A stretch of 64,000 bases of DNA from Dictyobacter kobayashii. Its GTDB lineage: Bacteria > Chloroflexota > Ktedonobacteria > Ktedonobacterales > Ktedonobacteraceae. The position numbers were made by a program, and so were the translations under genes. The notes under the pieces were generated by a model. That model was not told the origin of the DNA and searched no databases. It saw only the letters and a list, made by a program, of their open reading frames with translations. The stretch is taken from positions 5,208,001-5,272,000 of the forward strand of contig NZ_BIFS01000001.1 in the NCBI RefSeq assembly GCF_003967555.1. Direction: 5' to 3'. Positions 20,305 to 64,000 of the stretch are shown piece by piece; the stretch's first letter is position 1, and each line of letters starts with the position of its first letter.

Positions 20305-20971
20305 TCAGCTGTTCTGATACTCGGTTCCTGACTGGTGCGCCAGAAGGTGTTTAGAGTGATCGCGGCGATCATCTGAGCCCGAATAGATGTAGAGTGGACA
20401 ACGGATCTCGTGGGGCTGGACCACCGGCCAGGAGACTGTCGCTTGCCAGCAAGCCATCAGCGCGGGCAGTGAGCGTTGCTCAATCCAGCGTACATCTTCG
20501 TTGTCGAAGCCCAGCTGCTTGAGCGTCCCCTCTTGCTGTGCTTTGTACATGATGCCCAGTTCCGAAACAATCTGGTTGATGCGCTCTTCAAATAGACGCG
20601 ACCAAAGAAACTACCAGCCGCAACGGCCCGGCTGATGCGTGATGAGCGCGATGCAAGCAATAGGGTGAGCGAAGCCCCAAAAGAATGGCCCCAGACCAGA
20701 AAATTCTCAGCCTCACAGGCATCGGCCACCTCAAAAATATCCGCGAGCATCTGCTCTAAGCGATACGCCTTAGGCTGAGTTGGTTTATCGCTCTCACCAA
20801 TGCCCGGCGATCCATCGTAACAACCCGAAAATGCTGGCGTAATCGCTCGACATAGCCGATCTCATGCCAGATCTGTCGTGGCTCGTCAAACCCCTGCAGG
20901 AGGAGAAGTAGCGGACCCTCGCCCTGTACATCATAGGCAATCTTTGTGCCATCAGTTGAAGTAAGAAACAT
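20305..20971 (-). pseudogene. Alpha/beta hydrolase, two frameshifts and truncated end
   Basis: Rebuilding across frames gives MFLTSTDGTKIAYDVQGEGP, then TMDRR[G]IGESDKPTQPKAYR, the nucleophile elbow VWGHSFGAS (GHSFG) and YSGSDDRRDH. This is an ordinary alpha/beta-hydrolase of the proline-iminopeptidase-like group. Breaks lie near 20805 (short G run) and 20593 (TTT where TTTT would restore FEERINQIVSELG). The last part carrying the catalytic His is missing or scrambled, so this copy is probably a genuine pseudogene even if the two indels are errors. Confidence 0.72.
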
Positions 20972-21129
20972 ACAGTTACCTATTCTAATGCATACAAGCT
21001 TCCTGTATCTGATCGTTAACATGGACCCATACAGTTCAATGCCAGTGCCCCATTTCCCGTACCCAATAGGCGAAACGAAGCATTTATCGATAATTGACAG
21101 ATCCCTCGTCAATAGATAGTGTACCATAA

Positions 21130-24652: not shown

Positions 24653-24992
24653 CAGGGCTTTTTTTATGTTCTTCTTTGGCGCCTGCGGCGCCGGGTTGGG
24701 AGTGAGGAGTGTGGTGGTGGGCGGCTGCGGCCGCCCACCACCACACTCCTGACCTGAAAGAATGGGCCTCGTATGGCTTGCTTGTGATCTCCCTGTTTGT
24801 CGGAGGGAAGAGGCTGCGGCCGCCCACCACCACACTCCTGACCTGAAAGAATGGGCCTCGTATGGCTTGCTTGTGATCTCCCTGTTTGTCGGAGGGAAGA
24901 GGCTGCGGCCGCCCACCACCACACTCCTGACCTGAAAGAATGGGCATCGTAGTGCTTGCTTGTGATTTTTGGACGAACATGAAAAAGCCCTG
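24653..24992. repeat. Palindromic element, family A copy 3, with 89-bp tandem units
   Basis: The 340-bp element is bounded by 11-bp inverted repeats CAGGGCTTTTT (24653-24663) and AAAAAGCCCTG (24982-24992). A perfect 21-bp-arm palindrome spans 24705-24750. Its right arm plus spacer is then repeated with an 89-bp period (units at 24727, 24816 and 24905). The outer segments match the copy at 3382 in reverse orientation (GGACGAACAT...AAAAAGCCCTG on one side, GGCGCCTGCGGCGCCGGGTT on the other). Open frames over it are artefacts. Confidence 0.88.
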
Positions 24993-25116: not shown

Positions 25117-25320
25117 TTAATGATGTGGCTCGTACCTATGACCATGACGGTCATAACAATAACGGCGGTGCCGTTTTTTATCATAATAGCATTTGTCTCT
25201 ATCGCGCTCGTCGTCTCCATATCCAGTGTCATGACCACCGGATACTTGTGCCAGGTCCTGGTCGTTTAGTTCAATGCACTCGTTTGACTGATCAGCAGTG
25301 TCATAATGAAACAGTTTCAT
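25117..25320 (-). CDS. Double-glycine-leader peptide with Asp/Tyr/Cys/His-rich core
   Basis: This 67-residue peptide starts at an ATG with AAAGGGGA upstream. Residues 1-29 form a leader ending IELNDQDLAQVSGG, the classic bacteriocin-type Gly-Gly cleavage site. The 38-residue core has two Cys, clustered Asp and Tyr, and a basic His-rich tail ending EPHH. It is a divergent relative of the peptides at 38.6-40.9 kb, sharing the MKLF start, the ELNxQxL leader block and the acidic-to-His core polarity. That independent conservation shows it is a real gene. Expected fate is cleavage and export by a C39-peptidase ABC transporter; the core suggests metal binding. No modifying enzyme is adjacent. Confidence 0.75.
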   Translation of the reverse strand: MKLFHYDTADQSNECIELNDQDLAQVSGGHDTGYGDDERDRDKCYYDKKRHRRYCYDRHGHRYEPHH

Positions 25321-25803
25321 TGTAGTTCCCCTTTCTGGTCCAGCGAGAACGGTTCAAGTATGGCAAATGTCCATCCATACATGGGCACGTTTCTGGACGG
25401 CGAATGTTACTCATGAACACTGTTGTCAGCGGGCTTTAGCTATGATGGTGGCGCTGATGGTGATGGCGCTGGGGCTGCTGGCGAGGCCTGTGGTGACGAT
25501 CATTGACAGCGTTGAAATTACCATCAAATTCAGGTGCATGTGTGCGCTGACGTGCTGGAATGGCCCGCCGACCTGATGGCCGCTGAATAAAACGTGTCTG
25601 ATGGCCAGTTTGGCTAGTAGAATTAGCTTTGCCCCGCATTGGCCAAACTCAGCATCTGATATAATAGAGTGCATGGTGCGAATTGCCGGGGCGCGCTGCA
25701 AGGTTATTGTGCATACTTGAGCGCATTAGGGAGCCGGTTGTGGCTTCGGGTAGTAGAGGATAATGACGGTTTTGTTTGAATTAATAAGGATGGGCCTTTC
25801 TGG
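25321..25803. other. Intergenic region between peptide gene and sensor kinase
   Basis: Holds the leftward promoter region of the peptide gene and the rightward promoter of the kinase. A leftward 67-codon frame at 25436-25639 ends in a His-rich tail (QRHHHQRHHHS) but has no GG leader or ribosome-binding site, so it is not called as a gene. Confidence 0.45.
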
Positions 25804-27986
25804 ATGGAGCACGTGACAGATCAGGAGCAGGAGAATAAATACCTCAGGGAGCGTATGCAACAACTTGAGGCTGAGTTGCAGCGTGTACGTGAGCGCGAGG
25901 AGCGGGGCCAGGTTCTTTTACAGCTTACATCAGATTACGCCTATATGTATCGCTTGCTGCCCGATGACTCGATTCGGCGCGAGTGGACTACTGAAGCTTT
26001 TACGACGATTACTGGCTTTGAGCCTGAAGAGTTTGATCAGCGCGGCTGGGAATATTTACAACATCCCGATGATCGGTGGATGCTTCAGCCTCGTATTGAG
26101 GCGATGCGCCAGGGGCAGCGGGATACGCGTGTGTGGCGCGTGCTGACGAAGAGCGGTGGTGTGCGCTGGCTGCAAGATACCTGCCATGCGATCTGTGATG
26201 ATCCGCGTGGCTCTGAGCTTCGTGTCTATGGCATTGTGCGCGATATTACTGAGCGTAAGCAGGCGGAGTTGTTGCGCTTTCAGATGGAGCAGCGCCTGTC
26301 TGTTACCTTTGAGTCGATTGCGGATGCGGTGATTATTTATGATCATGAAGGCCGGTTAAAACAGTATAATAATGCGGCCCGCGAACTGTTGGGTTTTGAT
26401 CGATGTTCTGAATACACCCTCCTGTCACTGGAGGAGCGTGCTCAGGCCATGCATATAAAGAATGTGCAAGGTGGTTCTCTGGCCCTGGATCAGGTGCCCC
26501 TATATCGTATTTTACGGGGGGAGACGCTGCAGGGAACCACTGCCGAAGATGTCTGGATTATGACCCTGGCTGATCGTCAACTCGCGGTCAGTGTGAGTGG
26601 GGCCCCTATATATGATGCGATGGGGGATTTGATCGGTGCTGTGCTGGTGTGTCGCGATGTGACGGCGCGCCGCACTCAGCAGTGGCGTACCACCAAGGCA
26701 CTGGAGACCCTGTTGTCTATGGCTGAGGCGCTGGTGCACCTGCCGTTATCAGATGCGCGTCCATCGCATACTTCCAGGCGCGAAACCGCCCAGGAGATAT
26801 TGCACCTGACCTGTGACCTGCTCGGTTGTCAGATGGCGAGTATGGTCGACCTTGACCCTGAAACGGGGTTGATACAGCCTATCGCGGGTGTGGGCCTGCC
26901 TCCAGAGCTACGGGAGCAATTCTGGGATATAGTACCGACTATTCGTTTATCCGATTATGTTAATGCGCCTGACCTGGTAAGATTGCAGCGTGGTGAACCT
27001 GTGCTGTTCAATCTGGCGCAGGCTCCCTCAAAAGTCGCGCCTACCTTTGGTATCGAGCAGGTGCTGGGGCGCCGATCCGTTTACATAACCAGTTAGTGGG
27101 ATTTCTCTCCCTTAACTATGGTACTGCCAGGCATCGATTTTCACGCCAGGAAGAGTTTAGTTTTATCGCCGCCATCGGCAAGCTGGCCTCGCTGATGGTT
27201 GAACGCGAGCGCTTAATCGATCAACATGCCGAGGCACAGGCCGCCGAGTTAGCCAGTGAGCAGGCTCGACAGCAGATGGACGCCTTTCTGGGCATGACCA
27301 ATCATGAGTTGCGCAATCCTCTGGCCACTATGAAGGCCAGCCTGCAGCTTATTCGGCGCCAGCTTAAACGCCTCGAGGGAGATATGACCGTTGTCGCCGA
27401 TGTTGCGGCCCGCATTCAGAATCTGGTTGAGCGGGCCGAGCGCCAGGTCTCCGTCGAGACTCGGCTGGTGAATGATTTATTGGATGTTTCGCGCATCTTA
27501 GAACATAAATTAGAACTCAAAATTCAGTTTTGTAACTTAATAGACTTAGTACAAAGAGTCGTAGCTGATCAACTTTCCCTCGCCCACACGCGTACTATAG
27601 ATATACTCTTGCCGCAGGACGATATGGTTCCGGTCGTCGTGGATATCGATCGTGTGGGTCAGGTATTAACCAATTATCTAACGAATGCTATCAAATATTC
27701 TTCTGCTGATGCGCCGATCCAGGTAACCCTGGAGGTGCAAGAGCAACAGGCTTATATTGCTGTCCGGGATCAAGGACCAGGATTGACGAAAGAGGAGCAG
27801 CGCCGCATCTGGGAGCGTTTTTATCAGACGCCCGGCCGGCATGTTCATAGCGGGGCCGGTGGTTTAGGCCTGGGTCTCTATATTTGTCAGAATATTATCC
27901 AGCAACATGCTGGGCAGGTGGGAATCGAGAGCGAGCCAGGTCAGGGATCAACATTTTGGTTCACGCTCCCTCTTGCACGTGATTAG
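25804..27986 (+). CDS. PAS-PAS-GAF sensor histidine kinase, frameshifted in this sequence
   Basis: The soluble sensor kinase would be about 727 residues. It has an N-terminal coiled coil, a PAS/PAC domain (about 40-155, ending VYGIVRDITERKQAE), a second PAS (about 160-290, ending LVCRDVTARR) and a GAF domain. The break near 27070 falls in the GAF domain: four G occur where five would restore VLGAPIRLHNQLVGFLS. The kinase core follows: HisKA with GMTNHELRNPLATM and an HATPase domain (NYLTNAIKYSS, RDQGPGL, GGLGLGLYICQNII). It has no membrane segment. The receiver protein just downstream is the likely phosphorylation partner. Confidence 0.88.
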
Positions 27987-37501: not shown

Positions 37502-38374
37502 TTATTTCTGGACTCGTAGGAGCGTGTATCTCCATAATCCTGCTCGTAAGGCTCGATTCTGACAGATGCCAGCTTCAATTCCATGTAGACGAATGTCATT
37601 GTACAGGCCAATCCGGCACGCTACTCGGCCTATGGCGGCCACGATATCAGCTGTCGGCCATGTTGGCAGGTGCAACTTGCCTAACCAGTTCACGCTCGGT
37701 CGGATCTGCTCAGTGATATCACGGGTTTCCACCTTTTGAAACCCACTGGCCTGTAATGCCTGGATATATTCTGAGGTTGCAAGCAAGTCAGCCAGAGCCC
37801 AGCCCTTCAGCCAGGGCGTAAGCGTGGTTTTCTGGTCTGATGAGAGGGCGGGGGATTCTCGTAAGGTATAGTCAGCGATAATCAAGCGACCACCACCACG
37901 TAGCAGACGGTAGGCTTCGCGGAAAAACGCTTCCTTCTTATCTGAGTGTACTAAACTTTCCAATGCCCAGACGACATCAAAGGATTCATCTGGAAAAGTG
38001 GTTGCCGTGAAATTCATCTCAGCAAAGCTGACGCGATCCTCGACTCCTGACGTTTTCGCGAACCGCCTGGCTGCACTCACTTGTTCGGGCACCAGGTTAA
38101 TCCCTACCACCTGGCATCCCCTGTTTTTCGCCAACCAGATAGCAGAGCCGCCATAGCCACACCCTGCATCCAGCACTTGATCATCAGGAGAAATCGCAGC
38201 AAAACTTGCCAGGACCTCGTTCATCTTCAAAAGCGAGGTTCCGTGGCTTTTCACTGTGGAGTCATAATAGCCGAAGTGCATTGCTAAATTGGCCGGAGAA
38301 AACCAGTAGCGCCGATAGTCTGTTCCCGCTGCTTCATAGTATGCGACGACTTTGCTTTCTTGCGATGTCGACAT
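37502..38374 (-). CDS. Class I SAM-dependent methyltransferase next to the peptide array
   Basis: The 290-residue protein has a Rossmann methyltransferase fold: motif I VLDAGCGYGGSAIWLA, DRVSFAEMNFTATTFPDESF and FDVVWALESLVHSDKKEAFF, then LLRGGGRLIIADYTLRE. It resembles the group containing tocopherol, sterol-C24 and small-molecule C- and N-methyltransferases. The ATG at 38374 follows GAGGTGGG. It lies downstream of, and on the same strand as, the peptide gene at 38589-38808 (215-bp gap containing a hairpin). It could modify the peptide or be unrelated; sequence does not decide. Confidence 0.82.
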   Translation of the reverse strand: MSTSQESKVVAYYEAAGTDYRRYWFSPANLAMHFGYYDSTVKSHGTSLLKMNEVLASFAAISPDDQVLDAGCGYGGSAIWLAKNRGCQVVGINLVPEQVSAARRFAKTSGVEDRVSFAEMNFTATTFPDESFDVVWALESLVHSDKKEAFFREAYRLLRGGGRLIIADYTLRESPALSSDQKTTLTPWLKGWALADLLATSEYIQALQASGFQKVETRDITEQIRPSVNWLGKLHLPTWPTADIVAAIGRVACRIGLYNDIRLHGIEAGICQNRALRAGLWRYTLLRVQK

Positions 38375-38588
38375 TGGATCCCACCTCTTCTTAACTTTTT
38401 GCTTGAATCTTTCAAGCCTTAGCTGGGAAAAGCGTGCACAAAAAATGTTATGACCCCGATAAATGATTGTGAAGCATATAGATAGTGACATGCTCTGATG
38501 GATATCCTTACGGCTAAGCGATTCTTTCACTTTCAGCCGTCCGTCCGAGCATGTCACTTGTCTCTGGTTCTTATTGGGAATTGATCGT

Positions 38589-38808
38589 TTAGCAGCTGTG
38601 ATGGCGATGGTGGCGATGATGGTGGTGATGATGGTGATGGCGATCGCAGTCATAATCGCAATCGTCGTCATCATGATCGCAGTCGTCATAGTCATAGTCG
38701 CCGCCGCCGCTGCCACCGGAAACGGCGCTTAACTCTTGCTCGTTGAGCTCAAACTTCGCGGCTCTGGGCCTCGTCACGGCTGCTGTTGGAAGAGCGGAAG
38801 AATTTCAT
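38589..38808 (-). CDS. GG-leader Asp/Cys/His-rich peptide A, one-base frameshift in leader
   Basis: The ATG at 38808 has AAAGGG upstream and encodes MKFFRSSNSSRDEAQSREV. One extra T (TTT against TT in the copy at 40303) then ends the frame. The correct frame resumes at ELNEQELSAVSGG and continues to 38589. The mature part after GG is Gly-rich, then Asp/Tyr with three Cys, then about twelve His with interspersed Arg. It is almost identical to peptide C, so the intact form is clear. It precedes the methyltransferase gene on the same strand. The frameshift may be a sequence error. Confidence 0.72.
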
Positions 38809-38943
38809 GATCGGATACCCTTTCTGTACGCTGAGATGCGTACACTCTGTATTTTTCTCTGTTCGTTTCTTGCTACTCTTGCTGTTCTGGCTTGCTGGTT
38901 CTGTTTGGATCGTATGCTCTATGGATAGTATTGAATGGCCGGA

Positions 38944-39147
38944 TTATGAGCGATGGTGGCGATGATATGATGGTGTGGTGGTGGTGGCGATCGCAGTCAT
39001 AATCGCAATCGTCGTCATCATGATGCAGTCGTCATAGTCATAGTCGCCGCAGCCGCGGAAATAGCGGACAGTCTTGTCGTTCAGTTCGACATCGTTAGTG
39101 TTCTGGACGGTCTCGCGGTTGCTGTTGTTGGAGCGGAAAAGTTTCAT
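38944..39147 (-). pseudogene. Degenerate GG-leader peptide B
   Basis: The leader start MKLFRSNNSNRETVQNTNDV is identical to peptide D. Three single-base deletions then destroy the Gly-Gly site (ELNDKTVRYFRGCG in place of ELNEQELSAISGG). A fourth deletion after DYDYDDC throws the core out of frame, giving IMMTTIAIM. Four losses within 80 bp, all of G on the coding strand, suggest a true pseudogene rather than isolated base-calling errors. Confidence 0.7.
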
Positions 39148-39313
39148 GAGTGGATCCCTTTCTTTCTTTCTTGTTGTGTTTTTTCTCTTGTTCTGTTGCT
39201 TGGTTTTTTAAATTTGTCTTTTCACTACTTACGTCGTTCACTCATCTCTTGGAGGTCTCGACGTCTTTCTCTTATGTTTGCTTAGTCTTACCCTGAATGT
39301 GGATGAGCTGCCA

Positions 39314-39349
39314 TGATGCATATCACATGTTTAAGGTGATCTATATCAC
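39314..39349. promoter_or_regulatory. Tandem CRP-like dyads upstream of peptide B
   Basis: TGATGCATATCAC (39314-39326) and GTGATCTATATCAC (39336-39349) both match the GTGA-N6-TCAC arrangement of CRP-family sites, the first imperfectly. The same pair is conserved at 41028-41063 upstream of peptide D. They lie about 170-190 bp before the peptide start. Confidence 0.5.
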
Positions 39350-39427
39350 AAGGAATGTAGCATGTAGATCTTGGTGGGTATGATGGATTTCCATGATAGT
39401 GAGAGGGAAAATAAGCGCACCACTCTG

Positions 39428-39485
39428 GCGATAGATAAAGCGAGCTGGCAAGCTCCGTGGTTTGCCAGCTCGCTTTATCTATCGC
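39428..39485 (-). terminator. Long hairpin after the hypothetical gene
   Basis: Perfect 24-bp arms (39428-39451 and 39462-39485) with a 10-base loop lie just beyond the rebuilt stop of the gene at 39501-39949. Confidence 0.65.
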
Positions 39486-39500
39486 TGCAGGGAAATTGAA

Positions 39501-39949
39501 TTAGTCGTCGGAGGAGACCCATGACCAGGTGTCTTCCTCATAAGGAATATGGTCTTGCTCTAGCCAGGATTTAAAAGTGTTGAGATTTTGTTTCGCGCTA
39601 GCGGTTGCGGCCGTTGCGAGCTTTTGCTGCTGGAGAGTTGGGCGAACAGTGCTGCCAGGTTTGCCTGTCGCCCGCTTGGAGAGAGATTCACTTCGATATT
39701 GGCTTCCTGCTGTAGGCGCGCAAAAAAAGGCTCGGCATGTGTGGCAGGGATAATAAGGGTGTATTTATATTCGCGCCCTCCGCCGCCGCCTCGTGCTAAG
39801 TACTCATATTCTTCACACAGAAAAATAGATCCGACAGGTGTTATCGATATCGTAAGGCTATAATAGCGATCCACTTCCTTCTTGTATCCCTCGGTCACCT
39901 TCTGTTCCGGTAGAGACAGGTCCGCGCTTTGTTGTGGCTGTTCCGACAT
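39501..39949 (-). CDS. Hypothetical protein within the peptide array, frameshifted
   Basis: The frame from 39949 gives 129 residues ending at 39560. However, a one-base shift near 39650 opens a more natural tail (LQQQKLATAATASAKQNLNT, then FKSWLEQDHIPYEEDTWSWV and SSDD) ending at 39501, for about 149 residues. The N-terminus is polar. The middle has YYSLTISITPVGSIFLCEEY and a five-Gly run, and the tail is acidic with two Trp. No signal peptide, membrane helix or known family is recognised. Its location between the two peptide pairs suggests involvement with them, but no function can be assigned. Confidence 0.55.
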
Positions 39950-39982
39950 ACGCTCCCCTCCTTGGGTATCAATCCTTCCTCA

Positions 39983-40097
39983 GAATGTGTCCTACTCCCT
40001 CATCATGATCACCGTACTCTTCACGCCTGCGTTTGCGCGCCCGTCCGCGCAAGAGCGGCACGCATCCCATGATGATGAGGGATAATAGGACACATTC
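39983..40097. repeat. Palindromic element, family B, short form
   Basis: The 12-bp inverted repeats GAATGTGTCCTA (39983-39994) and TAGGACACATTC (40086-40097) match the ends of the element at 37272. Inside are complementary CCCTCATCATGAT-type segments and a GCGC-rich hairpin, but no long unique palindrome. Confidence 0.75.
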
Positions 40098-40302
40098 TCA
40101 TAGACACCATTATAGCAGCACTGCCATATCGATTCGGGGAGATAACGAGCTATTACCAGTTTACTTTCCGCTAATCAGGGATGGTGAAGTATATAGATAG
40201 TGACATGCTCTGACGGATACCCTACAGCTAAGCGATTCTTTCACTTTCAGCCGTCCGTCCGAGCATGTCACTTGTCTCTGGTTCTTATTGGGAATTGATC
40301 GT

Positions 40303-40521
40303 TTAGAAGTTGTGATGGCGATGGTGGCGATGATGGTGGTGGTGGTGGTGGTGGCGATCGCAGTCATAATCGCAATCGTCGTCATCATGATCGCAGTCGT
40401 CATAGTCATAGTCGCCGCCGCCGCTGCCACCGGAAACGGCGCTTAACTCTTGCTCGTTGAGCTCAACTTCGCGGGTCTGGACCTCGTCACGGCTGCTGTT
40501 GGAAGAGCGGAAGAATTTCAT
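40303..40521 (-). CDS. GG-leader Asp/Cys/His-rich peptide C (intact)
   Basis: The 72-residue peptide starts at 40521 with AAAGGG upstream. Leader residues 1-32 end VELNEQELSAVSGG, a canonical double-glycine processing site. The 40-residue core is SGGG, then an acidic stretch with 12 Asp, 3 Tyr and 3 Cys, then a tail with 12 His broken by Arg and ending NF. Cys, His and Asp are all metal ligands, so a zinc, copper or nickel-binding secreted peptide is a fair inference. No similar described RiPP or bacteriocin core comes to mind. Peptide D lies upstream on the same strand, 134 bp away. Confidence 0.82.
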   Translation of the reverse strand: MKFFRSSNSSRDEVQTREVELNEQELSAVSGGSGGGDYDYDDCDHDDDDCDYDCDRHHHHHHHHRHHRHHNF

Positions 40522-40655
40522 GATTGGATACCCTTTCTGTACGCTGAGATGCATACACTCTGTATTCTTTCTGTTCGCTTGTTTGTTATTATGGTGATCT
40601 GGCTTATTGTTTCGTTTAGATTGTGTGCTCTACCGATGGTTGTTGTATGGCCGGC

Positions 40656-40868
40656 TTAGAAGCTGTGATGGTGATGATGGCGATGATGATGGTGGTGATG
40701 GTGACGATCGCAGTCATAATCGCAATCGTCGTCATCATGATCGCAGTCGTCATAGTCATAGTCGCCGCAGCCGCCGGAAATAGCGGACAGCTCTTGCTCG
40801 TTCAGTTCGACATCGTTAGTGTTCTGGACGGTCTCGCGGTTGCTGTTGTTGGAGCGGAAAAGTTTCAT
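40656..40868 (-). CDS. GG-leader Asp/Cys/His-rich peptide D (intact)
   Basis: The 70-residue peptide starts at 40868 with AAAGGGA upstream. The leader (1-33) differs from that of peptide C at many positions but keeps MKxFRSxNS and VELNEQELSAISGG. The 37-residue core begins CGDYDYDDC, has four Cys in all, the same acidic Asp block and a 12-His tail ending SF. Conservation of leader and core polarity between C and D, despite divergence at other positions, supports selection on the peptide. Tandem CRP-like sites lie about 180 bp upstream. Confidence 0.82.
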   Translation of the reverse strand: MKLFRSNNSNRETVQNTNDVELNEQELSAISGGCGDYDYDDCDHDDDDCDYDCDRHHHHHHHRHHHHHSF

Positions 40869-41027: not shown

Positions 41028-41063
41028 TGATGCATATCACATGTTTGAAGTGATCTATGTCAC
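41028..41063. promoter_or_regulatory. Tandem CRP-like dyads upstream of peptide D
   Basis: TGATGCATATCAC (41028-41040) and GTGATCTATGTCAC (41050-41063) repeat the arrangement seen at 39314-39349. They lie between the divergent peptide D and DUF3626 genes and could serve either. Confidence 0.5.
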
Positions 41064-41077
41064 ATAGGATGCAATGT

Positions 41078-58051: not shown

Positions 58052-59439
58052 TTATGAAATGAGACCAAAAAGGTCATTTAAGATTTCAGAGACACTTGGA
58101 TGGGTGAAAATGTTATCACGCAGTACCTGGTAACCCATATCCGCATGCATGCTTATCGCGACCGTATTGATGACCTCATTTGATTCAGCACTATAGAGAG
58201 TACAGCCGAGAATCTTATTGGTACGAGCATCCACGATCGCTTTTAAAAGGCCCGTAGGTTCTTGCATCATTTGCGCCCGCGTACTGGCAGCCGCTGGCAG
58301 TTTGCCCACTTTGATCTCATATCCCTGATGGATTGCCTCTTCTTCTGAGAGCCCGACATGGGAGAGGGTTGGAGTGATGAAGATAGAATAGGGCACGTGT
58401 TGGCGTGTATGTGTGGATCGTTGGTTCTTTCCATACAGTTGATCACGCACAATACGAAAATCGTCCAGCGAGATATACGTGAATTGTGGTCCCCCGTTGA
58501 CATCTCCGATAGCCCAGATGTGAGGGATCGTGGTACGCAGATACTCATCGACCTTCACAAAGCCACGCTCGTTGGTTTCCACATCAGCTTTTTCCAGGTT
58601 TAGCTCATCTGTCACGGCTGCTCGTCCTACCGCGACCAGGACTGCATCTCCAGCCAATCTGTGGGTTTGTCCCTGTTCGTTGGTGTACTCAACGAAAGTG
58701 CGATCAGCCTCATCTTGAATCTGGCGCACTTTTGCATGAAAGTGAAAGACGATCCCCTGGTGTTGCATCGTCTGGTATACGGCGTCCGCAATGTCGCGAT
58801 CCTGCGCGGCCAGGAAGGTGCCATTCTGTTCTAAGACGGTAACCTCTGCACCAAAGGCCCGATATATGGAAGCAAACTCCAGGCCCACATAGCCACTACC
58901 AATCACGATTAAGTGACGAGGCAAATGTTTTAATTGCATCAGGGTCGTGCTATCGTAGACACGCTGACTCTCTTCCAGACCCGGTAAGCGGGGGACATAG
59001 GGCTTTGTGCCCGTATTGATGATAATATTTTCAGCCTGAATCTTGAGCACTTCCTGGGTATCACTGAGGACGACCTGTACCTCGTGGGTGCGGCAAAGCT
59101 GGCAAGACCATCTATGACATTAACATTGGGGTTGTTGTGCAAAGTGTCGTAATTTTTTTGTCGTAGCGTGGTGACCAGTCGCTGTTTCTCCTTGATAGCA
59201 CTTTCGTAGTAGGCTTGCTTCTCTTCATGCGTGTTGGGATGATGGCTGGACGCATGTTCAGCGGCCAGAGCGAGTGCCTTGGTAGGGATACAGGCGATAT
59301 TGATACAGGTTCCTCCATACATATCCTTTGATTGTTCTACTATGCTCACCTTCTGCCCTTTATTTCCCAGGAAGTTGGCAAGTGTCTTGCCGCCTTTGCC
59401 GAAACCAATGATGAGTGTGTCAAATTGCTGTGTCTGCAT
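58052..59439 (-). CDS. rclA: RclA-like pyridine nucleotide-disulfide oxidoreductase, frameshifted
   Basis: The ATG follows AAGGAGG. Residues 1 to about 110 hold the FAD motif LIIGFGKGGKTLANFL and the redox pair CINIACIPTK (Cys45, Cys50). One missing C near 59090 (CCC for CCCC) breaks the frame; restored, it reads HEVQVVLSDTQEVLKIQAEN and continues to the end. The NAD motif VIGSGYVGLEFASIY, the second FAD motif IWAIGDVNGGPQFTYISLDD and the C-terminal FTHPSVSEILNDLF match E. coli RclA closely. RclA is a reactive-chlorine-induced copper(II) reductase. No RclR regulator is adjacent. The break is probably a run-length error. Confidence 0.85.
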
Positions 59440-59855: not shown

Positions 59856-60443
59856 ATGGACGGGTCCAAGCGGACAATTTTTCGCCATGAGGCGCTGGAA
59901 TTTTATCTCCAGAACAAAGAGCAGACTATTCTGCCGCGTGTGGTGGCTCCTCCGGTGCTGCTGATGTTGTGGCTGCTGGCCGCTCTGGCCGTGCTGGCAA
60001 TGGGTGGTGCCTGTCTGTACCGCGTTCCCGTCTATGCGGCGGGGGTGGGTGTGATTACGCAGCACCCCAATCAGACAGGTAGCTCATCCTATACACAGGC
60101 TCTAGTCTTTCTGCCGCTTGACGTGGTACGTGCCAGTCAGCTGCGCTCACTACACGTCGGGAGCCAGGTTCATTGGCGGTTGGCTACGGCGGATCAGGGG
60201 ACGCTGAAGGCGGTGGTGGGGCGTGTCGAGCTGTCAGCGCTGGCGCCTGAGGAGATACAGCAGCGCTATGCGCTCGATGACCATGCGGCTCAGCTCATTG
60301 TGGCTCCTTCTTTTGTCATACAGCTACAACTGGAGGGCGATTGGCGGCGCTACGCGGGGAGTCGCTTGCAGGTACAGGTGCCGATTGATACGCAGAGTGT
60401 CATCTCGTTGTTGTCAGGTTCTAACATGGTCAGGGGTGAATAG
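59856..60443 (+). CDS. Short HlyD-like protein of the lanthipeptide export system
   Basis: The 195-residue protein has a cytoplasmic N-terminus (IFRHEALEFYLQNKEQTILP), one membrane helix (about 35-57: LMLWLLAALAVLAMGGACLY) and an outside beta-rich domain (VGSQVHWRLATADQGTLKAV). The N-terminus and anchor resemble membrane-fusion proteins of peptide ABC exporters (NHLM secretion proteins). The long coiled coil of true HlyD proteins is missing, as fits a monoderm organism. GAAAGG precedes the start. It ends four bases before the transporter gene and is probably its accessory subunit. Confidence 0.65.
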   Translation: MDGSKRTIFRHEALEFYLQNKEQTILPRVVAPPVLLMLWLLAALAVLAMGGACLYRVPVYAAGVGVITQHPNQTGSSSYTQALVFLPLDVVRASQLRSLHVGSQVHWRLATADQGTLKAVVGRVELSALAPEEIQQRYALDDHAAQLIVAPSFVIQLQLEGDWRRYAGSRLQVQVPIDTQSVISLLSGSNMVRGE

Positions 60444-60446
60444 CGC

Positions 60447-62654
60447 ATGGTCACAGCAAAATCCTCCAATGGGCGTCAGCAGGGCAAGGGCGTGCTGCGC
60501 AGGCGCGTCGAGGCGCAGAGGCAGATGGGGATAATGGAGTGCGGGGCGTCCTGCCTGGCGATGATCCTGACGTATCATGGCCGCAAGACCAGTGTGGCCG
60601 AGGTGCGCGAACGCTGTGGGGTTGGACGCGATGGGTTGACGGCCCTGGCCCTGGTGAACGTGGCCCGCTCCTATGGTTTGCGGGTGCGGGCCATCACAGT
60701 TGACGAGCGCGAGTTTCGCTTCGTTCCTTTCCCAGCCATCATCCATTGGAATTTTAACCATTTTATGGTGGTTGAGCGTTGGACGCCAAAATATGTCGCC
60801 CTGGTCGATCCCGGCTCTGGCCGCAGGCAGGTGACGATGGATGAGTTCCGGCAGAGCTTTACCGGAGTTGTATTGACCTTTGAACCCGGCGTCAACTTTC
60901 AACGTCGCCGCGGGTCCGATCGAATCACGCTGCGTTCCTATGCCACCGGTTACATCCGCCAGGCTCCTCTGGCCTTTCTACAGATTCTCGGGGCATCGTT
61001 GTTGCTGCAACTGTTTGGATTGGCGATGCCTCTGGTTACAGCTATTGTGATGGATCACGTTATTCCCCAGGGGATGCAGGATCTGTTGTTCGTCATTGGT
61101 GGTGGCCTGGTCGTGTTGCTCTTGGCGCAGTTTATTGTGACGCTCTTACGTGGCTCTCTCTTGCTGTATTTGCAGGCACGCATCGACATGCGCATGATGC
61201 TCAACTTTTTCGAGCATCTGTTGTTGTTGCCGCAGCGCTTTTTTCAGCAGCGCTCGAGCGGTGACATTCTGGCGCGCATGAATAGCAATCTCATTATTCG
61301 CGATACGATTAGCAACCAGCTCATTTCAACGGTACTCGACGGCAGCTTTGTCCTGATCTATTTTGTCATCCTGCTCACGCAGTCCTGGTCCTTCAGCTTG
61401 CTCGTCTTGCTGATCAGCGCGCTGCAGATAGGATTACTGCTAGGGACGACGCGTCTGATGCACGCGTTTTCGAGCCAGGAACTGGCGGCGCAGGGCAAGG
61501 CGCAGGGATATATGGCGGAGGCCCTGGTAGGCATGACGACACTAAAATCTATGGGAGCGGAACACCGGGCGCTGGAACGCTGGTCCAACCTGTTTTTCGC
61601 GCAGATGAATGTCTCGCTACGGCGGAACTATCTCTCTACGCTCCTGGCCGCCGTACAGGCGCTCTTGCGCACCTGCGCGCCACTGATCCTCTTGTGGTTT
61701 GGCACCTGGCAGGTGCTCAATGGCACGATGTCGGTGGGCGTGATGCTGGCCCTGAATGCCCTGGGAGCATCGCTCCTGACTCCGCTGGCGACCCTGATGG
61801 CGAGTGGGCAGAGTCTGCAACTTATTCATTCGCACCTGGAGAGGATCGCCGATGTGCTGGAGGCCGAGCCTGAGCAGCAGCCGGATGAGGTGATGCTGCC
61901 GCCCGCGCTCAGCGGTCATGTGCGCCTGGAGCACGTCTCGTTCCAATATGATGTGCATGCTCCACAGGTCCTGCATGACATCTGCCTGGATATTCAGGCT
62001 GGCCAGCGCGTCGCGCTTGTCGGCCGAACCGGCTCGGGCAAGAGCACGCTGGGCAATCTATTGCTGGGGCTCTATCTGCCGACCGAAGGGACCATCTGCT
62101 ATGATGAGCATCCCTTATCGACGCTGAACTACCGGGCGGTACGTTCTCAGTTCGGGGTGGTCGTCCAGCATGTGAGTATCTTTAGTGGCACTCTTCGCGA
62201 CAACCTTACCTTGAGCAATCCGGATGTGGATATGGAGCAGGTCGTCAGGGCGGCCAGCCTGGCCGCCATCCATGATGAGATTACGCGCATGCCGATGGGC
62301 TACGAGACGTATGTGTCCGAAAATGGCAACGCGCTCTCGGGTGGGCAATGCCAGCGCCTGGCCCTGGCGCGGGCACTGGTTCACCAGCCCGTTCTGCTGC
62401 TGCTGGACGAGGCGACCAGCTCACTGGATGTCATAACCGAGCAAGTAATTGAGCACAATCTGCGCGCCCTGGCCTGCACCCAGATCATTATCGCCCATCG
62501 CCTGAGCACCATTCGCAACGCGGATGTCATCCTGGTGTTGGATGAGGGTCGCATCGTTGAGCGCGGTTCACACGAAGCATTGTTGCAGCAGCAGGGCTAC
62601 TACGCGCAGCTGATTCAGCGGCAACTGGCCAATGGTGAACTATGCGGCGAATAA
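60447..62654 (+). CDS. C39-peptidase ABC transporter (bacteriocin/lanthipeptide exporter)
   Basis: The 735-residue protein fuses three domains. An N-terminal C39 peptidase has Gln26, catalytic Cys32 in QMGIMECGASCLAMI, His105 in NHFMVVE and Asp121 in LVDPGSG. A six-helix ABC membrane domain covers about 160-450. The ATPase has Walker A GRTGSGKSTL, signature LSGGQCQRLALARALV, Walker B LLLLDEATSSLD and switch IIAHRLS. Such proteins cut a leader after Gly-Gly and export the core. Its nearest substrate is the lanthipeptide precursor at 62870. The other GG-leader peptides in this window have nearly the same cleavage-site sequence and could share it. Confidence 0.93.
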   Translation: MVTAKSSNGRQQGKGVLRRRVEAQRQMGIMECGASCLAMILTYHGRKTSVAEVRERCGVGRDGLTALALVNVARSYGLRVRAITVDEREFRFVPFPAIIHWNFNHFMVVERWTPKYVALVDPGSGRRQVTMDEFRQSFTGVVLTFEPGVNFQRRRGSDRITLRSYATGYIRQAPLAFLQILGASLLLQLFGLAMPLVTAIVMDHVIPQGMQDLLFVIGGGLVVLLLAQFIVTLLRGSLLLYLQARIDMRMMLNFFEHLLLLPQRFFQQRSSGDILARMNSNLIIRDTISNQLISTVLDGSFVLIYFVILLTQSWSFSLLVLLISALQIGLLLGTTRLMHAFSSQELAAQGKAQGYMAEALVGMTTLKSMGAEHRALERWSNLFFAQMNVSLRRNYLSTLLAAVQALLRTCAPLILLWFGTWQVLNGTMSVGVMLALNALGASLLTPLATLMASGQSLQLIHSHLERIADVLEAEPEQQPDEVMLPPALSGHVRLEHVSFQYDVHAPQVLHDICLDIQAGQRVALVGRTGSGKSTLGNLLLGLYLPTEGTICYDEHPLSTLNYRAVRSQFGVVVQHVSIFSGTLRDNLTLSNPDVDMEQVVRAASLAAIHDEITRMPMGYETYVSENGNALSGGQCQRLALARALVHQPVLLLLDEATSSLDVITEQVIEHNLRALACTQIIIAHRLSTIRNADVILVLDEGRIVERGSHEALLQQQGYYAQLIQRQLANGELCGE

Positions 62655-62869
62655 ATTTCTCTTTCACATGGACGTTCCGGACTGTATAGCGTACGATCCA
62701 GTCATTGCATTGAGGAGGCTACAGGCGATAAACTCGCCATCCCTCATAAGTTAGGAAGCACTGACGAAAGGACATACGGATATGCGGCCGTCGTCATAAA
62801 TGATTTAACGTTCTGATGAGTTATTGGTCGGGGCACATGCTGTGGACCCGACAGGAAAGGATCACTGCC
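62655..62869. promoter_or_regulatory. Upstream region of the lanthipeptide precursor gene
   Basis: The gap between the exporter and precursor genes has no coding frame. A separate promoter for the highly expressed precursor is likely here. The ribosome-binding sequence GGAAAGG lies about 10 bases before the ATG at 62870. Confidence 0.4.
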
Positions 62870-63046
62870 ATGAACATCGAAGAAATTGTCAAAGCCTGGA
62901 AATCCGAAGAAGAGACCGCCGACGTCAACATGCCCGCCAACCCGGTTGGAGAGGAGCTCTCCGACGAGGAGCTGCAGGAGGTCAGCGGCGGCTTCCCCTG
63001 TCCTATCATCTCAAAATGCTTGACAAATTGGACCGGCAATTTATAA
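62870..63046 (+). CDS. Class II lanthipeptide precursor (LanA)
   Basis: The 58-residue peptide has an acidic leader (1-41) beginning MNIEEIVKAWKSEEE and ending GEELSDEELQEVSGG, a canonical LanM/C39 leader with a Gly-Gly site. The predicted 17-residue core is FPCPIISKCLTNWTGNL. It has two Cys and Ser7, Thr11 and Thr14 as dehydration sites, so at most two (methyl)lanthionine rings can form. A core this short resembles no lantibiotic I can name. It sits between the exporter and LanM genes, as expected for a cognate substrate. Confidence 0.88.
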   Translation: MNIEEIVKAWKSEEETADVNMPANPVGEELSDEELQEVSGGFPCPIISKCLTNWTGNL

Positions 63047-63055
63047 AAGCCCCGC

Positions 63056-63125
63056 TTCCATAGCGCCTTGCGCGTATGAGCTGTCGCGCCTGTGCCACAG
63101 AAAAAAAGGCTCGGGCGTGGCGGTG
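63056..63125. repeat. Fragment of a family B palindromic element
   Basis: In reverse orientation this stretch reads GCCACGCCCGAGCCTTTTTT, matching the inner segment before the palindromes at 28510 and 37272. A GCGCCTTGCGCG mini-hairpin lies beside it. It falls between the precursor and LanM genes and could reduce read-through, giving more precursor than synthetase. Confidence 0.5.
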
Positions 63126-63193
63126 CATTCTCACATCAACCTTTATGAGAGCAGGACAATGCGGATATTACGACGAAGAGGCAGGTAAATGAA

Positions 63194-64000
63194 ATGCTCA
63201 TTGATAATGAAGAGGTAAATATCAATTTTCAGCACGAGGGGGCAGAGGCATGGGGAGCGACGCTGCGCGAGGTTCTGGCCTACCTGACGCGACTGGCGCG
63301 TGAAACTGGCGATCCTGACAAAAAGCAGTGGGCATTTATTGATGCTGATGTTCCTTATCCTTTTGAAGAGCTACTCGCTCCGTTCGTCGTTATCGCGCAT
63401 CAGCACTACCAGGACCGCGCGGGCTGCGCGTATACGCGACTGGCTTCCCAGACCCACCTGATCCTGCAACGCCATTTGCTGCAGGTGCTTACCTCTCTAT
63501 CCGTGCCCACCTTGCACGCCGAGTTTGCCAGAGCTTATGCCGAGGCACGTTCCCTGGCGACCGGGCAGCAGTTGGATGAACGCAGCTTCTACGCGCGCTT
63601 CATCGAGCAGATGTACCGGGGAGGGCTGGCCGCTTTGTTGGGATGCTATCCAGCGCTCGCCGAGCTGCTGGCTACCACGAGCAACCACTGGCTTGAGGCC
63701 GGCTGTGAATTTCTCACGCGCCTGGATGCCGACTGGCTCTTGCTGCAGCAGACCTTTGGAGCCGATCAGATCGCGGGACCGGTGATGATGTTGCAGCCCG
63801 CGCTCTCTGAGCCACACAATGGACGCCGCATGGTGATGGCGCTCACCTTTGAATCTGGTTATAAGCTGGTCTATAAACCTAGAAATGTCGGCATGGAAGA
63901 AAGCTTTTACCATCTTCTCTCGTGGTGCAATGCGCGGGGAATGGCGCCCAGTTTCAAAGTGCTGACGATCGTGAAGCGGATGCACTATGGCTGGATGGAG
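63194..64000 (+). CDS. lanM: LanM class II lanthionine synthetase, N-terminal part (runs off window)
   Basis: The frame is open from the ATG at 63194 to the last base (269 residues). It is the N-terminal dehydratase (DUF4135) part of LanM: LLAPFVVIAHQHYQDRAGCA, HLILQRHLLQVLTSLS, GGLAALLGCYPALAELL, LDADWLLLQQTFG and the diagnostic LTFESGYKLVYKPRNVGMEE with SFYHLLSW. The enzyme phosphorylates and eliminates Ser/Thr of the precursor and, through a C-terminal zinc cyclase domain beyond the window, forms lanthionine rings. A purine-rich AGAGGCAGG lies upstream; an out-of-frame ATG at 63190 is ignored. The cyclase domain and downstream genes cannot be judged. Confidence 0.9.
   Translation, partial: MLIDNEEVNINFQHEGAEAWGATLREVLAYLTRLARETGDPDKKQWAFIDADVPYPFEELLAPFVVIAHQHYQDRAGCAYTRLASQTHLILQRHLLQVLTSLSVPTLHAEFARAYAEARSLATGQQLDERSFYARFIEQMYRGGLAALLGCYPALAELLATTSNHWLEAGCEFLTRLDADWLLLQQTFGADQIAGPVMMLQPALSEPHNGRRMVMALTFESGYKLVYKPRNVGMEESFYHLLSWCNARGMAPSFKVLTIVKRMHYGWME

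Follow-up and report, generated by a model that had tools for sequence, protein, structure and literature searches.

Double-glycine-leader peptides with His/Asp/Tyr/Cys-rich, aliphatic-poor cores form a family in Ktedonobacteria

Small peptides with one type of double-glycine (GG) leader and cores rich in His, Asp, Tyr and Cys form a family in Ktedonobacteria, with at least 23 members in 11 genomes of 7 genera. We put at about even the chance that they are C39-exported, probably unmodified, metal-coordinating low-complexity peptides. Genes A to E, from which the description starts, lie in a stretch of 64,000 nucleotides (hereafter the window) of the genome of the soil bacterium Dictyobacter kobayashii (8.85 Mb, two contigs). 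The initial annotation of this stretch had called for a search for homologues among Ktedonobacteria, and since at least 11 genomes hold them, the objection that the peptides are confined to one genome falls.

Peptide C (40303..40521, minus strand) is intact and has 72 residues, with a leader of 32 (MKFFRSSNSSRDEVQTREVELNEQELSAVSGG, 40426-40521) and a core of 40 (SGGGDYDYDDCDHDDDDCDYDCDRHHHHHHHHRHHRHHNF, 40306-40425). Peptide D (40656..40868, minus strand), also intact, has 70, with a leader of 33 (40770-40868) and a core of 37 (CGDYDYDDCDHDDDDCDYDCDRHHHHHHHRHHHHHSF, 40659-40769). Both frames are open and a GAAAGGG ribosome-binding site precedes each ATG, in agreement with the sites claimed earlier. 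D (40868-40656) lies upstream of C (40521-40303), and together they form a two-gene unit on the minus strand. The divergent member, peptide E (25117..25320, minus strand), is of 67 residues, 29 in the leader (ELNDQDLAQVSGG) and 38 in the core (HDTGYGDDERDRDKCYYDKKRHRRYCYDRHGHRYEPHH), and matches the family profile at 1.8e-20. The frames, GG leaders and lengths of 67 to 72 residues reported for the window peptides are thus borne out. However, calling the cores 'Asp/Cys/His-only' was an overstatement, as Tyr, Gly and Arg are also present, and the tract of 'up to 12 His' is His-rich but has 8 as its longest unbroken run, 12 being reached only with interspersed Arg. In the vicinity of E, a 67-residue frame without a GG leader lies upstream on the same strand (25436-25639) and ends in RHHRPRQQPQRHHHQRHHHS; at 24723-24989, an 89-nt unit rich in CCACCACCAC is repeated three times in tandem, two copies being identical and one 75% alike.

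The D-C unit (40868-40303) is duplicated at a distance of 1.71 kb as B-A (39147-38589), in which both genes are broken. By alignment, peptide A (38589..38808, minus strand) is a copy of C frameshifted by one T inserted in the leader, and peptide B (38944..39147, minus strand) is a copy of D in which several single-base deletions disrupt the frame. Over the leader and the Asp block these deletions, each of a G, are the sole difference between B and D. Over the Asp block, A, B, C and D share one DNA sequence, synonymous sites included, save one base missing in B, while more than half of the synonymous sites differ between the leaders of C and D (pS 0.56). Because the block matches at synonymous sites while the leaders have diverged, its identity reflects recent homogenisation, by copying or conversion, and is uninformative on selection in the core. 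The 'conservation between divergent copies' put forward previously is therefore weak as stated, since the A-D cores match at synonymous sites too.

The view of A and B as degenerate genes stands insofar as their frames are broken, but assembly indels are a live alternative. Indeed, the open frames at the D. kobayashii LanM loci measure 540, 748, 765 and 888, with one locus in pieces, whereas those of relatives are nearly all of 1000-1200 residues. The exporter and kinase genes at locus L053 are also shorter than their relatives, as is a gene at L128 whose orthologue is whole. These many single-frameshift gene splits suggest indel errors in the D. kobayashii assembly, and A and B may therefore owe their frameshifts to the assembly rather than be pseudogenes. 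As in the LanM and exporter loci, genes that look split by lone frameshifts, not found in relatives, occur in the window at 25804-27986, 58052-59439 and 20305-21127.

Classical C39 leaders follow the pattern L(-12)..EL(-8,-7)..(V/I)(-4).GG. The family leader matches it: its hydrophobic positions are conserved, and GG (or GA) occupies the predicted cut site. TIGR01847 and TIGR03949 gave weak, sub-threshold matches limited to the leader, and Pfam and NCBIfam gave no match above cut-off. Between the leaders of C and D we found a dN of 0.20 for a dS of 1.02 (ratio about 0.2), and between the leaders of orthologues in D. kobayashii (G000) and genome G026 a dN/dS of 0.18/1.47. These values indicate that the leader is under purifying selection, and this ratio of about 0.2, together with the homologues in other genomes, is the reason for which we take the window genes to be real. 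Furthermore, small ORFs bearing the leader numbered 51 in a set of 81 sequences (the window and mostly C39 flanks), whereas the reversed control gave 2, and no strict leader was found in 800 kb of control regions from three genomes.

Members were collected with peptide D as query, with a ten-sequence profile, by scanning C39 flanks and by follow-up scans; a separate contig scan with peptide D gave no match. Among 400 Chloroflexota genomes they are confined to one family of Ktedonobacteria, outside which a single doubtful match was obtained (G202). Searches of phages and plasmids gave none, and the PDB matches look compositional. D. kobayashii carries further members at C2:894.7k and C1:4852k. 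The first of these has orthologues at the same place in G026 and in D. arantiisoli Uno17 (G023), with a divergent SUKH-1 gene on one side and distal genes common to these genomes on the other. In these three genomes the leaders are identical at 17-24 of 35 positions, and the cores, although made of similar residues, are nearly unalignable. Selection thus appears to keep leader and composition, not core sequence. SUKH-1 (SMI1/KNR4) is the divergent neighbour of one member in three genomes (L128, L161, L162, L181), and is a weak candidate for an immunity protein, as D. aurantiacus S27 (G024) keeps the SUKH-1 locus without the peptide. A peptide D homologue in D. arantiisoli (G023:C57) adjoins the same alpha/beta hydrolase as in the window; the array's methyltransferase and HNH neighbours have no link to family peptides elsewhere.

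The cores are set apart by their composition. Those of 20 members contain 21% His, 18% Asp/Glu, 18% aromatic residues, 12% Arg/Lys, 11% Gly, 7% Cys and 2.4% Ala/Ile/Leu/Val/Met, against 1%, 5%, 8%, 2%, 10%, 7% and 29%, respectively, in nine other GG peptides of the same genomes. These aliphatic residues and Met are absent (0%) from the cores of C, D and E, each of which has one Ser or Thr; the cores of A-E are almost Ser/Thr-free. Leaving His out of the count, the net charge is -9 for C, -10 for D and +1 for E, and most family cores are acidic. No ORF with a core of this type was found in spaced control regions of three genomes that total 800 kb. Inside C39 flanks, composition and leader co-occur with a p of 3e-8, although the orthologous loci among them are not independent; the p of 1e-24 in a wider test is inflated, some loci having been chosen by similarity. 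Two extreme members, with HHHGGHGG repeats, flank a C39 gene on either side in G036. At the other end of the range, G024_T1, G027_Y and G034_AB contain no Cys or little His, and for this reason metal binding may not be common to the whole family.

C39 genes are numerous across the class Ktedonobacteria, and D. kobayashii alone has 9 C39 domains. A C39-ABC exporter adjoins family members at L053, L062, L065, L068, L095, L099, L103, L106 and L111; the proportion of members within 6 kb of a C39 gene, 6/23, varies with the rule used to count loci. In a tree of 74 C39 exporters, a single clade with support of 100/99, apart from the lanthipeptide exporters, unites five that are encoded next to His-rich members and come from three genera. 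The association is not one-to-one, because the exporters of L065, L103 and L111 fall in another part of the tree, and in G023 and G026, which have family members, we found no exporter belonging to the His-rich clade. The D. kobayashii representative of this clade, at C1:4850614, is split by a frameshift in the assembly and lies beside a His-rich relative with a similar leader. No C39 gene is present within 19 kb of A-E, the nearest (60447-62654) being part of a LanM cluster and grouping with lanthipeptide exporters. This class II lanthipeptide cluster (59856-64000 and L131) encodes a Pfam-silent accessory protein, the C39-ABC exporter, an NPVG-type precursor (62816-63046) and, from 63194, LanM (DUF4135), with at least three more precursors past the window end. 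Another conserved GG peptide, whose core is hydrophobic (MFKFGKKN...SGG, then SLLNTV...LLP; L052, L061, L067, L071, L075), occurs in each of the five genomes of the genus next to the same, orthologous C39 gene.

The array also has candidate regulatory elements. A hairpin of -41.9 kcal/mol (z -5.8) lies just after gene C (40195..40277, minus strand), with no clear U-tract, and its only other copy in the genome follows A (about 38481-38563). Tentative CRP/FNR-like boxes occur about 180-200 nt upstream of D (41050..41064, minus strand, TGTGACATAGATCAC), with a tentative second half-type site nearby, and upstream of B (39336..39350, minus strand, TGTGATATAGATCAC). They are the only two exact matches to TGTGAN6TCAC in the window. 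Further sites precede members in L162, L068 and L095, and overall TGTGAN6TCA boxes were found upstream of 4/23 family genes and 10/456 control genes (p 0.003, in a post hoc comparison).

How could such peptides work? The conserved leader would guide the peptide to a C39 peptidase-ABC exporter, which would cleave it behind the Gly-Gly pair and so free a core of some 30-80 residues. Export of the family peptides is likely; that of the window peptides would take place in trans, with the C39 protein at C1:4850614 as the best candidate. Once released, the core, composed of His, Asp, Tyr, Gly, Arg and Cys, would probably carry no modification, be largely disordered and coordinate Zn, Cu or Ni outside the cell. 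Its role there may be metal withholding or buffering, or the formation of a metal-crosslinked surface material. Coordination through His, Asp and Cys is plausible from the composition, and selection on composition without sequence is what one would expect of a low-complexity polymer that binds metals or is crosslinked by them. Among the neighbours of the peptides, we recognised no gene for metal handling. Of the secreted metal-binding peptides proposed in the initial annotation, we retain a GG-leader family with an exporter clade and potentially metal-binding cores, metal binding itself being what we infer. If it implies modification, its term RiPP lacks support: no modifying enzyme was recognised adjoining the genes (among the subset of neighbours scanned with Pfam), MNIO (PF05114) has no match in any of the five genomes of the genus, D. 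kobayashii included, and Ser and Thr are nearly lacking in A-E. A more specific formulation, which we offer tentatively, holds that these are hypervariable, unmodified, metal-triggered low-complexity peptides with an exporter clade of their own, selected for composition and not for sequence, and serving either as histatin- or shepherin-like agents of killing or withholding or as metal-crosslinked surface material.

The same features can be read otherwise. The peptides could be antimicrobials, equivalent in bacteria to histatins, His-rich defensins or shepherins, which Zn or Cu would activate against fungal or bacterial competitors. Bacteriocins typically leave the cell by the GG/C39 route, the cores are hypervariable at one locus, patchy between species and many per genome, as antagonism genes are, and the GGH/HHH repeats of the G036 members resemble shepherin I. 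However, the acidic charge of most cores argues against a membrane-active antimicrobial and is unlike that of histatins, no aliphatic or amphipathic stretch is present, no immunity gene was recognised in the window and the SUKH-1 neighbour can persist without the peptide, so that we hold this explanation to be rather unlikely.

It also seems doubtful to us that the peptides are matrix or coat components, secreted by C39 onto the cell surface, aerial mycelium or spore and perhaps crosslinked by metals or through Tyr and Cys. Ktedonobacterial hosts are filamentous and sporulating, and repetitive Gly/Tyr/His cores selected for composition over sequence would suit a material. The precedent is Synechococcus EbfG1-4, GG/C39 peptides described as forming biofilm matrix (PMC4997328). 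However, the amyloid hotspots of EbfG are hydrophobic and the family cores are without aliphatic residues; moreover, no matrix gene was seen near members, and orthologous cores differ greatly between species.

We regard as very improbable that the peptides are precursors modified by an enzyme encoded in trans, whether lanthipeptide, bufferin-like or other. LanM genes are frequent in D. kobayashii, one being about 22 kb from the array, and NPxG leaders of lanthipeptide type occur in some relatives whose cores are His-rich. But the leaders of C, D and E are without NPxG, their cores have a single Ser or Thr each, and MNIO and recognisable modifying neighbours are lacking as described above. The NPIG leaders joined to His/Gly-rich cores (e.g. 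HHHHRHHHHHGGGYQ) at L129, L130 and L155 apparently mix both families. Finally, that the genes are trinucleotide-repeat DNA open by chance is scarcely credible: the core DNA is of low complexity and another frame is open over it (a 404-aa ORF, 37502-38716), but the leader dN/dS, the synteny, the ribosome-binding sites, the lack of such ORFs in 800 kb of control and the same residue types kept in one frame by divergent cores all speak against it.

Compared with known systems, the family is closest in its leader to double-glycine bacteriocin precursors (TIGR01847, TIGR03949, PF10439), with which it shares the leader pattern, the GG site and, for several members, a C39 exporter nearby. It differs in that no library match reaches the cut-off or extends beyond the leader, the core is polar, mostly acidic and almost devoid of aliphatics, and the window has no recognised immunity gene; the cationic, hydrophobic or amphipathic core of a class II bacteriocin is not what C, D and E display. 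Cyanobacterial GG clusters (Wang et al. 2011, PMC3140520) and EbfG1-4 (PMC4997328, PMC9981879) likewise combine small GG peptides, a C39 exporter and a highly variable core; the parts of these reports that we consulted mention no His-rich core, and describe EbfG1-3 as forming amyloid through hydrophobic hotspots (PMC9981879). Histatins and shepherin I (PMC10698721) resemble the family as short chains of His, Gly, Tyr and charged residues and give a lead for mechanism, the Zn complex of the Gly/His peptide shepherin I being fibrillar and antifungal (PMC10698721). However, they show no homology to it, histatins are cationic and Sec-exported, and shepherin I contains neither Asp nor Cys. Class II lanthipeptides of Ktedonobacteria (PMC3951391; window 62.8-64 kb) share the C39 exporter, the GG leader and the hosts, but have an NPxG-type leader, LanM, a Ser/Thr/Cys core and exporters mostly on other branches; this class was rejected for the window peptides, with no LanM within 20 kb of A-D and Ser/Thr nearly absent. 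Bufferins and other MNIO-modified copper-binding RiPPs (PMC12452194) are small metal-linked peptides too, but require MNIO, and with PF05114 absent from all five genomes of the genus this assignment was also set aside.

In the sections that we consulted, the mining literature on Ktedonobacteria treats lanthipeptides and makes no mention of His-rich peptides (PMC3951391, PMC6497799), and among open-access papers PMC6497799 was the sole relevant match for Dictyobacter and bacteriocin. We found no such family in the libraries and open-access literature, which suggests novelty without proving it. GG-leader peptides are usually taken for bacteriocins, lanthipeptides or signals, and here one lineage appears to reuse the GG/C39 route for diverse His/Asp/Tyr/Cys-rich cores missed by curated models. 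If they bind metals, they would be genetically encoded metal-binding polymers of 30-80 residues, easily synthesised and tested, and a clear case of composition-level rather than sequence-level selection in a secreted bacterial peptide. In conclusion, C39-exported GG peptides are a known kind, and what appears to be new, and is wider than first noted, is a His/Asp/Tyr/Cys-rich, aliphatic-poor type of core.
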